A stretch of 64,000 nt of DNA from Aureispira sp. CCB-QB1 (GTDB lineage: Bacteria > Bacteroidota > Bacteroidia > Chitinophagales > Saprospiraceae), in the NCBI RefSeq assembly GCF_000724545.1, contig NZ_JHBV01000041.1, positions 124,001 through 188,000 of the forward strand, read 5' to 3'. Position numbers and translations under genes: made by a program. The number at the start of each line of letters is the position of its first letter. Positions within the stretch are counted from its first letter, which is position 1. Positions 7,150 to 62,379 of the stretch are shown piece after piece. The notes below the pieces were generated by a model. It saw only the letters and a program-made list of their open reading frames with translations. It was not told the origin of the DNA and did no database searches.

Positions 7150-7194
7150 TAGTAGTTAGCTACGCTGCTACTTCGTGGTTTCAACGAACTATTG
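7150..7194 (+). mobile_element. MITE-like element copy A (short, internally deleted)
   Basis: The right end GCTGCTACTTCGTGGTTTC plus AACGAACTATTG is shared with the copies at 34012, 47784 and 61909. The left end TAGTAGTT is shared with the copy at 61690. Perfect 6-bp direct repeats TCCTAT flank it (7144-7149 and 7195-7200). The right direct repeat contains the stop codon of the thioredoxin-like gene (7197-7199, complement TAG), so insertion occurred right at the end of that gene. Confidence 0.7.
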
Positions 7195-28985: not shown

Positions 28986-29131
28986 CAATAGTTCGTTGAA
29001 AAACTTTATTAGTTTGATAATCAATAAGTTGTAAATTTATTGCATTTTGTGTTAAAAATTTGATTATCAAACTAATATAAATGTGCTTTTTTATCTTTTT
29101 GGTAAAAAAGTAAAAAATCAACGAACTACTA
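28986..29131 (-). mobile_element. MITE-like element copy B (146 bp, reverse orientation)
   Basis: Ends CAATAGTTCGTTGA (28986-28999) and TCAACGAACTACTA (29118-29131) are inverted repeats. The outside is flanked by exact 6-bp direct repeats ATATGT (28980-28985 and 29132-29137). Inside is a second exact inverted repeat of 17 bp (29008-29024 and 29060-29076, ATTAGTTTGATAATCAA). Its reverse complement shares the TTTACTTTTTTACCAAAAAG stretch and the ATTAGTTTGATAATCAAA stretch with copy E. No ORF is present. Confidence 0.75.
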
Positions 29132-33877: not shown

Positions 33878-34427
33878 TTTCCTTTTTTTATAATAAAGGT
33901 TATTTAAGTAAATTTTGTATGAGCAATAAAAAATGACCGTTAACGAAGCTTACTCCGTGAGGGCTTCGCCGTTAGACAATGATTTAGCTCGCAGGCTCGT
34001 GAGAGAGTTCTGCGCTGCTACTGCGTGGTTTCAACGGAGTAATGTTTTTTAGAATGCGCTAGGATAATTTGAGGTATTGTAACAACATACTTATAACCAT
34101 AAATACTTTGTTTATTTTTGGCTTATTATCCTATTTCTAAAGTCCTCCCTACTCTAATATACATTTTTTTCACTATTTTTTACATCTTTCTAAAGCAGCT
34201 AAGTGCTGCGTAAAGTAAATTGCTATTGTCTTTATTTTGCGTTCTTATATTCTCTTGTAAGCAAAACATTTGACCTAAAAACCAAAGTATCATATATAGA
34301 TTAGCAACATTTAAACAATTTTCGTCGTTATAGCAATAAACAACTTATATTCGTTCCCCCGAATAGCTGCTCTTTCTTTTACCTAGAGAAGGAGTTTTGC
34401 GCTCCTATACTCTGCAACACACATTAT
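33878..34427. other. Intergenic region with MITE-like element copy C
   Basis: 550 bp. Copy C (33948-34044) occupies the first part. The remainder is AT-rich without an ORF. A short GAAGGAGTTTTGCGCTCC-type segment lies just before the next gene. I see no RNA gene. Confidence 0.5.
33948..34044 (+). mobile_element. MITE-like element copy C (divergent)
   Basis: The right end carries the family block CTGCGCTGCTACTGCGTGG (34010-34028) followed by TTTCAACGGAGTAATG. The left arm TTACTCCGT (33950-33958) pairs exactly with ACGGAGTAA (34034-34042). Compared with copies B and E the arm sequence differs at two positions and both arms changed together. I find no direct repeat flanking it. The left side overlaps another small hairpin (TAACGAAGC / GCTTCGCCGTTA), so it may be compound or decayed. 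Confidence 0.5.
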
Positions 34428-44542: not shown

Positions 44543-45748
44543 CTAAGCCAATTCCATTGCTAAATCCATATCTTTCCAATGTAAAGCAATTTTAGGAGCT
44601 GTAATTCCCTCGGGGAAATGTGCCGTGGCTTGAGTAGATTCAATGGTTGTATCAGCTCCTGCTTGTTTTAGTAATTCTGCCATCTCTAATGGTCCTCCCG
44701 TATCTGCTAAATAGTGTGTTGGTGTCCAGCCATTTGCATCTTGTGCATTGACCATTTTATTTTTTGATAATTTGAAAAATGTTTTCAAACCATCTATTCG
44801 ACCACTTCCTGCCACTTGGTGCAACAGCGTTATTTGATTCCAAGGTTTTTCTTCAAAACTAGCACCATGTTTATGTAATAACTTTATAATATCGCCCACT
44901 CCCGAAGAACAAGCTACTCTCAATGGAGAAATCCCTCTATCATCACTTCTTATTACCGATACGCCACCTTTTACAAGCACTTTGACAACAGCTAAAGCAT
45001 TCAAATATTCTCTATGTTCAAAAGGCGCCCATTCTTGACTGGCAATTCTCTGTTGTTCCTTCAAGGTCATTAAGCGACCAGGTTTAGGCTTGTATTTATT
45101 ATAATCATAATAGTACGCTAAGTAACCTTTTTGCAAGGTACAACGTACAGGCACGCCATTTACCTCATCATCATGCACCCAATTGTCCACTCTAGTACTA
45201 TACAGCGTCCAAAGTGCCTGCAACAAAGCCGTGCTACCATTAGCAGTCACAGCCGAAGTATCTGCTCCTAGTCTTAACAATGATTTTACAACCCCGACAT
45301 TACCTAAAGCGCTCGCAATTAACAAAGGCGTATTCCCATCTGCATCTTTAGCATCTTTGTCACAACCATTTTTCACCAAAGCTACCACCAAGCTTGCAAA
45401 GTTAGAAGCGGCTGCCAAATGAATGGCCATTGCTCCTGAAGTCGTCTGTTGAGTCTTATTCGCTCCTGCTTTTAACAATAAAGTACAAATTGCTTGATGT
45501 CCTTCCTTTGCAGCTAAATGAAGCGGATATAACTGATCTTTATCTGGCAAATTGGGATCAGCACCTTCCTTTAACAACACCTTGACTACCTCAGTGTGTC
45601 CCATCAATGCAGCAGAATGCAAAGCACCAGTATGTGCTCCCAACGCATTGGGATTAGCCCCCCTTTTTACCAAAGACAAAACATCTTTGGCTGCTCCTCC
45701 TTCTACTGCCAAAATCATCTGCTCATCCAATGAGCTTAGCTTTTTCAT
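44543..45748 (-). CDS. Ankyrin-repeat protein, tandem copy 2
   Basis: 401 residues, no signal peptide. Ankyrin repeats run from residue ~10 to ~185 (MGHTEVVKVLLKEGADPNL, EGHQAICTLLLKAGANK and others) and from ~255 to ~375. In between is a ~60-residue non-ankyrin insert with YSTRVDNWVHDD and SQEWAPFEHREYLNAL. The C-terminus ends with PKIALHWKDMDLAMELA. The neighbour at 45754 has exactly the same length and layout, so this is a tandem duplicate. The genes are 5 bp apart and form an operon. A protein-binding scaffold is likely; partner unknown. Confidence 0.85.
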   Translation of the reverse strand: MKKLSSLDEQMILAVEGGAAKDVLSLVKRGANPNALGAHTGALHSAALMGHTEVVKVLLKEGADPNLPDKDQLYPLHLAAKEGHQAICTLLLKAGANKTQQTTSGAMAIHLAAASNFASLVVALVKNGCDKDAKDADGNTPLLIASALGNVGVVKSLLRLGADTSAVTANGSTALLQALWTLYSTRVDNWVHDDEVNGVPVRCTLQKGYLAYYYDYNKYKPKPGRLMTLKEQQRIASQEWAPFEHREYLNALAVVKVLVKGGVSVIRSDDRGISPLRVACSSGVGDIIKLLHKHGASFEEKPWNQITLLHQVAGSGRIDGLKTFFKLSKNKMVNAQDANGWTPTHYLADTGGPLEMAELLKQAGADTTIESTQATAHFPEGITAPKIALHWKDMDLAMELA

Positions 45749-45753
45749 TCCAT

Positions 45754-46959
45754 TTATTTTAGTACTCTTGCCAATTTAGTATCTTTCCAATGCAACGCAA
45801 CTTCTTCAGCAGTACAACCAGGTGGCATACCTGCTCCTCGTCCTTCTTTGCTTTTGATGGCAGGATCAACGCCTTTTTCAAGCAATAAAGTTGCCATCTT
45901 CAAGGGTCCTCCAATATCTGCCAAATAATGCAAAGCCGTCCATCCAAAATCATCTACAGCATTTGCGTCTATTACTGCCCCTAGCTTCAAAAATTGCTCT
46001 AACCCATCTAAGCGACCACTCCCAGAAACTCGATGTAGTGGAGTAGCATTTTGATACCCACGAACATCTAGAACTGCCCCCTTGTCGTAAAGTTGTTGAA
46101 TGACCAATGCCTCCCCAGTATGGCAAGCCATATTGATTGGAGTCTGTTTAGTATCATTAGCAGCATTGACATCCGCCCCTGCTTGGATCAAAAACATAGC
46201 CGTATCTAAGGCATCCAAATACCTCAAATGATTTTTAGGTCCCCAATCTTTGTTTGCGTATATTCTTTGTTCCTCAATAGTCAACAGATCGCCTAATTGA
46301 TCTGCCTCACTTGGATTATAATCTCGATCACATCTAAAGCAACCCTTTTTGATTTCATAACGAATCAAGCGTTCATCTTCTTTCTCTTCGTATATCCACT
46401 CTGCTGTTCTAGTGCCGTACAACTGTCTCAAAGCCTTGATCAATGGCGTATCTCCTCCTAAGTCTTTGTTGTTCGCGTCTGCTCCTGCATCTATCAAAAG
46501 GCGAACAACTTCTGTGTTCCCCAAGCTTGCAGCAGCAGCCAAAGGGGTCAAACCATTAACATCCTGTGCTTCTATATTGGCACCTGCTTCTAACAACACA
46601 GGGATTACCGCAGCATAATTGGACGCAGCGGCTACATGCAGTGCCGTTCCCTTTTGAGAGGTCAAGGCATCAACATTAGCACCAGCATTAATTAATTGTT
46701 TGGCAATTGCCACGTGCCCTCTACTAGAAGCTAGATGTATCGGATAATATCCTTGTACATCGTTTGCATCTGCTTTTGCTCCTTTGCTCAACAACAACTC
46801 AACAACAGTACCATGCCCATTGAATGCAGCACAATGCAAAGCCCCCGAGTTGGGTCCCATTGCATTAGGACTAGCCCCTTCTTCTAGAGCTTTTTGAACT
46901 CCGTCTAAATTGCCAGTTTCTGCGGCAACAACTATTGCTTGATCTAATGTTTCATTCAT
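45754..46959 (-). CDS. Ankyrin-repeat protein, tandem copy 1
   Basis: 401 residues, first gene of the pair. Ankyrin repeats flank an insert (~185-255) with YGTRTAEWIYEE and NKDWGPKNHLRYLDAL, equivalent to the insert of the other copy. The C-terminal EEVALHWKDTKLARVLK matches the paralogue ending IALHWKDMDLAMELA. It has no signal peptide or membrane segment. The pair interrupts the usual order between DUF1573 and yajC and may be a later insertion into that conserved cluster (inference). Confidence 0.85.
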   Translation of the reverse strand: MNETLDQAIVVAAETGNLDGVQKALEEGASPNAMGPNSGALHCAAFNGHGTVVELLLSKGAKADANDVQGYYPIHLASSRGHVAIAKQLINAGANVDALTSQKGTALHVAAASNYAAVIPVLLEAGANIEAQDVNGLTPLAAAASLGNTEVVRLLIDAGADANNKDLGGDTPLIKALRQLYGTRTAEWIYEEKEDERLIRYEIKKGCFRCDRDYNPSEADQLGDLLTIEEQRIYANKDWGPKNHLRYLDALDTAMFLIQAGADVNAANDTKQTPINMACHTGEALVIQQLYDKGAVLDVRGYQNATPLHRVSGSGRLDGLEQFLKLGAVIDANAVDDFGWTALHYLADIGGPLKMATLLLEKGVDPAIKSKEGRGAGMPPGCTAEEVALHWKDTKLARVLK

Positions 46960-47643: not shown

Positions 47644-47824
47644 TAGTACTTCGTGGATTAGCTCCCTGTGGTCGTGAGAGCGCAAGCTTAGTTTTTTAAC
47701 TTTTTTGTAAAAAATTAAAAAAGCATCTTTGCATTATTTTAATTATCAACCCTTTAAAGAATATCGATAATCAAACTGATGCGATTTAGCTGCGCTGCTA
47801 CTGCGTGGTTTCCACGAAGTAATG
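47644..47824 (+). mobile_element. MITE-like element copy D (181 bp)
   Basis: Ends TAGTACTTCGTGGA (47644-47657) and TCCACGAAGTAATG (47811-47824) are inverted repeats with an exact 10-bp core. The left block ATTAGCTCCCTG(T)GGTCGTGAG and right block GCTGCGCTGCTACTGCGTGG are shared with copy E. AATTTT occurs on both outer sides (47639-47644 and 47825-47830), a near-perfect target duplication that overlaps the element's first base. It lies between DUF1573 and the barrel-like gene. Confidence 0.7.
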
Positions 47825-61667: not shown

Positions 61668-61689
61668 TTTGTGGTTCGATGTATTAATT

Positions 61690-61941
61690 TAGTAGTTCGT
61701 TAATTAGCTCCCTGCGGTCGTGAGATCGCTATCGCTTAGTTGTTTACTTTTTTACCAAAAAGATAAAAAATCACATTTATATTAGTTTGATAATCAAAGT
61801 TTTAACACAAAGCACAACAAAGGTGTAACTTGTTAATTATCAACTGCGCAGCACTCACGAAGTAAACTAATAAAGTTTACTTCGTGAGCGCTGCGCTTTT
61901 AGTTAGCTTCGCTGCTACTGCGTGGTTTCAACGAACTATTG
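61690..61941 (+). mobile_element. MITE-like element copy E (252 bp, most complete)
   Basis: The left end TAGTAGTTCGTT and right end AACGAACTATTG form imperfect inverted repeats (10 of 12 match). Exact 6-bp direct repeats TTAATT flank it (61684-61689 and 61942-61947; two further bases, TA, also match). It contains the left block ATTAGCTCCCTGCGGTCGTG shared with copy D, the middle TTACTTTTTTACCAAAAAG block shared with copy B, and the right block GCTGCTACTGCGTGG shared with A, C and D. An internal hairpin spans 61846-61896. No coding capacity. Confidence 0.78.
61846..61896 (+). repeat. Long near-perfect hairpin inside copy E
   Basis: CTCACGAAGTAAACT (15 bp) is followed by loop AATAA and its exact complement AGTTTACTTCGTGAG. 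Outer GCGCAG and CTGCGC extend the stem across a 2-base mismatch on each side. A TTTT follows. The inner ACTTCGTGAG is the copy-D/C-type arm, so it looks like a smaller element nested in copy E. It could terminate transcription. Confidence 0.7.
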
Positions 61942-62379
61942 TTAATTTAAAAACATTTTTTTAGGTATCTAGCGAGCAGCTTACTAAAAGCCATTACAAA
62001 ACAACACTATAGGAATATTAAACTAAACCTTCTTATTTTTATTTTTTTTGGGAAGGGAAATTGTAAATAATTACTTGTGTCCGTGTTTATTCTAAGGCTC
62101 ATTCCATCTACTTAAACGTCAGACCTTTATTTATATTGTACAAATCTCAAATAGGACTTCAATGAGTTTAAACGTAGGCAACCTATCCATCCTACAACTA
62201 TCGTTTTGCATTGGTATAAATTTCAAAATTGCTCATCGAAAAAAAACTGTGATTCAACAAAAAATATCTTTAAAATGAAAATATCTTCATATTTTGAGTA
62301 AGAATTCGGGAAACCCTCACCTTAGGTCCCCATGTCATGGCTCAACATTTCGTTTTAATTCAATTATAACATACACCTA

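Follow-up and report, generated by a model that had tools for sequence, protein, structure and literature searches.

A MITE family of two end classes with nested GC-rich modules in Aureispira

Several kinds of short bacterial repeats invite comparison with the elements described here. The SDR elements of Nostoc are reportedly repeats of about 20-30 bases that nest in each other and in minitransposons and occur in few related species. ERIC and NEMIS are called MITEs in one account (PMC3116915). The Aureispira family is like such IS-derived bacterial MITEs in being short and non-coding, in having terminal inverted repeats, target duplications and many copies, and in residing in a genome that holds an insertion sequence (IS) with nearly the same ends. 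Among the literature matches listed, represented by titles and the beginnings of abstracts, we found no published description of these elements.

We analysed a stretch of 64,000 nucleotides (the window) of Aureispira sp. CCB-QB1, corresponding to C41:124001-188000 of a 7.37-Mb genome in 184 contigs (G000), together with seven congeners (G001-G007). One protein encoded in the window finds its closest relatives, at 90% identity, in two uncultured Aureispira assemblies, in a search from which records of G000 itself may be missing. With 35 further stretches, the window makes up a set of 36 G000 tiles covering 747,505 bases, or about one-tenth of the genome. On balance, we favour as probable a combined explanation in two layers: MITEs that would be moved in trans and, within them, a second tier of modules. 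The internal module system is the new part of the finding, beyond the MITEs already recognised in a preliminary description of the window.

Element copies, end classes and target duplications

Copy E, a class I MITE of 252 bp (61690-61941, forward strand), has the ends TAGTAGTTCGTTAA ... TCAACGAACTATTG and lies between exact TTAATT target duplications at 61684-61689 and 61942-61947. Its interior contains, all on the forward strand, module M3b (61706-61739; 34-bp core with TT on each side), the left arm of an inner inverted repeat (61781-61796), module M5b (61844-61863; 20-bp core, AA on each side), module M2 (61880-61902; 23-bp core, TTA on each side) and module M1 (61906-61925; 20-bp core). 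As single-stranded DNA, the copy folds better than shuffled sequences (z -5.85); the window has no Rfam matches at gathering thresholds, and no tRNA genes were found in it. Copy A (7150-7194, forward strand) is a minimal class I element of 45 bp with an exact 6-bp TCCTAT duplication and M1 at 7159-7178. Copy B, also of class I (28986-29131, reverse strand; 146 bp), has an exact 6-bp ATATGT duplication and none of the GC-rich modules. The second class is represented on the forward strand by a copy at 47644-47824, which has the ends TAGTACTTCGTGGA ... TCCACGAAGTAATG, an exact 5-bp AATTT duplication and an M1 module, and by a decayed copy at about 33930-34044, where the left limit is approximate and the right end alone is clear (AACGGAGTAATG at 34033-34044, with M1 at 34013-34028). 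Elsewhere in the window, 45754-46959 encodes an ankyrin-repeat protein, beside a second ORF of equal length at 44543-45748.

The intergenic elements with shared termini that the preliminary description reported are directly visible in the sequence, as are the exact 6-bp repeats, different at each site, that it assigned to copies A, B and E. The near-exact AATTTT it gave for a fourth copy does reflect a duplication, namely the exact 5-bp AATTT at 47644-47824, with ends of the other class. Likewise, the single family with 6-bp duplications is real as a family and has to be redrawn to include a second end class and duplications that range from 5 to 7 bp.

Genome-wide, the class I end motif YARTAGTTCGTT occurs at 344 places in G000 (164 + 180), compared with 20 for the reversed pattern (8 + 12), so its abundance cannot be attributed to chance. 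Among exact-ended pairs less than 400 bp apart in the G000 tiles and short loci, 33 of 35 are flanked by an exact duplication of 5 bp (three pairs), 6 bp (25) or 7 bp (five), and two have none. When the motif was relaxed and nearest ends were paired within the G000 tiles alone, duplications of 5-7 bp accompanied class I pairs in 24 of 29 cases and class II pairs in 10 of 13, and neither of two mixed pairs had one. Could such direct repeats be mere coincidence in AT-rich intergenic DNA around an ordinary non-mobile repeat? The duplications are rich in A+T (83% of 695 duplicated bases in a wider element set), as this explanation would have it. Yet it is refuted by the control, in which just one of 186 end pairs lying 400-6000 bp apart, with at most four mismatches in all, reaches at least 5 bp, and that one is a chance pair; we regard coincidence as a negligible prospect. 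The accepted elements are 32-436 bp long, have 12-14-bp ends in inverted orientation and no transposase of their own. Given these termini, the target duplications and the copy number, they are a MITE family. The non-coding mobile family proposed earlier fits this class in its inverted termini and in its differing 5-7-bp duplications without a transposase of its own, and direct repeats are present at most copies across the genome rather than mostly missing.

The second end class, TAGTACTTCGTG / CATTACTTCGTG, is also present in three congeners. Its motif YAWTACTYCGYK was found at 293 places in G000, 519 in G001, 349 in G003 and 400 in G006, against 35, 27, 52 and 36 for the respective reversed controls; the counts in G002, G004, G005 and G007 are 26, 11, 10 and 10 against 29, 27, 27 and 24. 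The class I motif occurs at 1-10 places in the seven congeners, at or below control, with at least one genuine-looking class I pair in G006 (C375:3490-3633). In 25 stretches of G003, exact 5-7-bp duplications flank 18 of 30 exact-ended class II pairs, and several of the remaining 12 are one base off. A length of 146 bp recurs in both species (G000 and G003) and in both end classes, and the two classes share one interior architecture.

Comparison with congeners also bears on individual sites. At the copy A locus, four of six congener loci (G006, G003, G007 and G004), examined by eye, have no element in the 160 bp beside the end of the neighbouring gene; in this comparison one flank alone is homologous and the other two loci are uninformative. 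Around copy E, two neighbouring genes have relatives in G003 (76% and 68% identity). In place of copy E, the esterase gene there is preceded, 24 bp upstream, by a 32-bp element whose left end belongs to class II and whose right end has decayed. In both species a small element, of a different class in each, directly precedes the esterase gene (window 61668-61689; L167 11784-11839), the gap to the start codon being 22 bp in the window and 24 bp in G003. An effect of these elements on expression of the gene is possible.

The shortest forms deserve separate mention. The 45-bp pattern, with up to two mismatches, occurs at 27 places in G000, nine of which are right parts of longer elements. Inspection of 17 stand-alone copies revealed an exact 5-7-bp duplication in 11, 4 bp in one and none exact in five, three of the latter being one base off by eye; an eighteenth stand-alone copy (L136) has an exact 6-bp duplication. 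In G003, a 32-bp element (L166 1435-1466) carries an exact 6-bp duplication, and two other 32-bp elements have duplications with one mismatch. At 32 and 45 bp, elements that bear target duplications would be very short for a looped transposition complex.

A candidate partner insertion sequence

An intact IS with the same termini, able to act in trans, had been proposed as something to look for genome-wide, and one was found outside the window. This IS4-like element of 1365 bp (L112 1480-2844, computed to lie at about G000:C39:225631-226995) has perfect inverted ends, CAATACTTCGTTGA, that match the class I MITE end at 13 of 14 terminal bases; it is flanked on both sides by TTATGC, a 6-bp duplication, and its frame of 429 aa is intact. 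The transposase contains Y-(2)-R-(3)-E-(6)-K, the IS4 superfamily signature, and a PF01609 (DDE_Tnp_1) domain that scores 30.5 bits (cut-off 23), as in that superfamily. The element is further like the IS701 family in that its best NCBIfam model is IS701_3, and differs from that family in that the score of 92.3 bits stays below the family cut-off of 170 and in that its duplication is 6 bp long, the IS701 family having a 4-bp target duplication. A distance of 27 bp separates the IS from a class I MITE (L112 1229-1452), which is flanked by a TACTAA duplication of its own.

Within G000, the IS protein is single-copy, matching nothing but itself. Relatives, most of them broken, were found in six of 99 other genomes searched; a scan of named genomes with the transposase found none. 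These relatives end in CAATAC or CAATAG, both of which occur on one G003 remnant, one per end; no exact target duplications were seen at other related IS copies. A three-row transposase profile matches three of the eight genus genomes, G000 and, as remnants, G003 and G006, placing the IS or its remnants in three of the four genus genomes that bear the elements and in none of the other four.

We consider it very probable that an IS4-superfamily DDE transposase acting in trans moves the MITEs; this enzyme would recognise about 14 terminal bases and make target duplications of 5-7 bp, mostly 6 bp. On sequence grounds, the intact 1365-bp IS is the putative mover. Another transposase, lost or missed and reading exact class I or class II ends, might move the MITEs instead: the IS end and the end of class I MITEs differ at one base, a single copy of the IS is present, the class II ends differ from its ends, and in G001, with its 519 class II ends, the profile detected no transposase relative. 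Against this stand two observations, which render such an enzyme unlikely. G000 as a whole encodes three PF01609 proteins, of which the IS protein alone matches the transposase profile. Furthermore, the G000 tiles (about one-tenth of that genome) and the G003 tiles contain no IS-sized pair of MITE ends with a true duplication, as would be expected of an autonomous copy. Two long pairs had been considered and rejected: L094 2212-5111, which shows a 6-bp duplication, has on its left a 146-bp MITE bounded by a separate TTATAA pair, its far end being a chance match, and G003 C1:1406784-1410346 holds ordinary-looking genes.

Modules within the elements

Longer copies contain GC-rich modules of 18-36 bp. 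A copy either has a given module whole or lacks it, and a 2-3-bp A/T duplication often marks the junction. We aligned 170 distinct elements with duplications exact or one base off and ends with at most two mismatches; this set includes a few false pairs, such as window 28986-29077. Counting filled and empty copies, respectively, the modules are AA[CTGCGCAGCACTCACGAAGT]AA (24 and 28), T[AGCTGCGCTGCTACTTCGTGG]T (11 and 17), TT[AGTTCGCTACGCTCATGAGGGTGCAAGCTTAG]TT (7 and 15), TTA[CTTCGTGAGCGCTGCGCTTTTAG]TTA (7 and 10), TTA[GCTCGCTACGCTCGTGAGATCGCAAGCTTAG]TTA (6 and 21), AA[CCCGCAGGCTCACGAAGT]AA (4 and 3) and a 36-bp core within M1 (3 and 10). There are 103 insertion clusters in all, 46 of them with at least two empty copies, and among these 46 the junction repeat is at least 2 bp in 23, 1 bp in 11 and absent in 12; random segments reach 2 bp in 20-25%. 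Of the clusters with at least three filled copies, nine of 14 have a junction repeat of at least 2 bp. Since the clusters are not independent, including alignment variants and sharing descent, we attach no P value to these counts. Insertion lengths are mostly even (32 of the 46 clusters, and 13 of the 14 with at least three filled copies), which may reflect a small number of independent modules.

The M1 core, CGCTGCTACTNCGTGG, occurs at 245, 86, 33 and 77 places in G000, G001, G003 and G006, respectively, and at none in the four other congeners or in 12 further genomes from the family; the reversed control is zero in all 20. These four carriers are the genus genomes with class II ends, and the core is absent from the 16 others searched. 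The 20-bp core recurs at several MITE positions and within other modules (M5 and the beginning of M3b), and it occupies two sites of a second repeat family, R2. The G000 tiles contain 46 cores: end motifs enclose 38, R2 accounts for four, and the other four have surroundings that are decayed or partial. Of eight cores in the G003 tiles, five are enclosed by end motifs. No case of M1 in single-copy DNA emerged from either set of tiles. Two G003 loci (L105 8405-8620 and L153 7780-8050) have M1 outside recognised MITE ends, as TTA[GCTTCGCTGCTACTACGTGG]TTA, apparently within a repeat of a third kind.

R2, with ends TAAGTAAG ... GATTACTTA, is exemplified by L097 at about 856-1044; other copies are in L062, L091, L098, L059, L060, L088, L073, L089, L094 and L093, and in L106 of G003. 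Apart from the modules, no similarity between R2 and the MITEs is visible. In an alignment of fifteen copies, site 1 is filled by TA[CCTGCGGTGCTACTGCGTGG]TA in four of 13 scorable copies, and site 2 by a module such as TA[GCTGCGCTGCTACTGCGTGG]TA in five of 14. The remaining copies, the one from G003 among them, are empty at both sites, site 1 then holding one TA and site 2 either one TA or nothing but T-rich sequence.

Positions 1 and 7 of M1 are G-C in 66, C-G in 12 and A-C in one of 79 contexts. Within the elements, 190 of 193 occurrences of the motif SCTNCGS show complementarity, as against 326 of 618 in the background. Because the copies share descent, this pairing signal rests on few real double changes. 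Folding of the single modules tried with ViennaRNA showed no clear excess over shuffles, so we make no claim of stable single-module folding.

How, then, did the modules come to be distributed in this way? The GC-rich modules of 18-36 bp probably form a second tier that uses MITE interiors as landing places and would insert there as units. We infer unit insertion, in preference to shuffling by conversion or template switching, because one 20-bp core stands at several sites with empty alleles; the limits of this case are the 23 of 46 clusters without a 2-bp junction repeat, the location of M1 mostly in MITEs with no module insertion seen in single-copy DNA, and single-module folding no better than that of shuffles. 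A stronger version, held tentatively, is that the modules may themselves be mobile DNA units, inserting at A/T dinucleotides with a 2-3-bp duplication, mainly in MITEs, R2 and each other, and carrying paired C-TNC-G (on the other strand, C-GNA-G) minihairpin motifs. Our caution stems from that same half of the clusters.

Immobile modules would offer a different account, in which gene conversion, or template switching at short matches, spread a few old insertions among MITEs, and the loss of palindromes between the 2-3-bp direct repeats produced the empty copies. The concentration of most M1 cores in MITEs and the lack of a 2-bp junction repeat in half of the clusters speak for it, as do the mixed module combinations, which are expected from recombination among copies. 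What such exchange explains less readily is the same 20-bp M1 core at two R2 sites, both with empty copies including that of G003, and again inside M5 and at the start of M3b; we rate it as possible, if somewhat doubtful.

A further alternative, which casts the modules as REP elements with a RAYT (Y1) transposase as their mover, starts from a genuine likeness to REP/REPIN: the modules are short, GC-rich, imperfectly palindromic and present in high copy number. They differ in that a Y1 transposase is absent from three of the four carrier genomes: PF01797 has no match in G000, G001 or G003 and one match each in G006, a carrier, and G004, which has no elements. The modules also show target duplications, which are not generally expected of Y1 enzymes. 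We rejected RAYT as the general module mover, and regard REP elements of this kind as a highly improbable explanation.

Were the modules indeed mobile, they would rank among the smallest known mobile DNA units, and the MITEs would be nurseries carrying them round the genome. With insertions of about 20 bp available in both filled and empty copies in a bacterial genus, and with a junction signature, the mobility of DNA so short, and the enzyme responsible, become open to experiment.

Relation to known systems

The Aureispira family differs from ERIC- and NEMIS-type MITEs by having two end classes on one interior architecture, by forms reaching down to 45 and 32 bp, and by interiors with nested modules. 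In those interiors, the modules behave as dispersed units of 20-30 bases with filled and empty sites, within repeats only. They resemble the Nostoc SDR elements, as those are reported, in their size of about 20-30 bases, their nesting and their restriction to a few species. They differ from those elements in their Bacteroidota host and, probably, in the A/T dinucleotide duplication at many junctions and in sequence.
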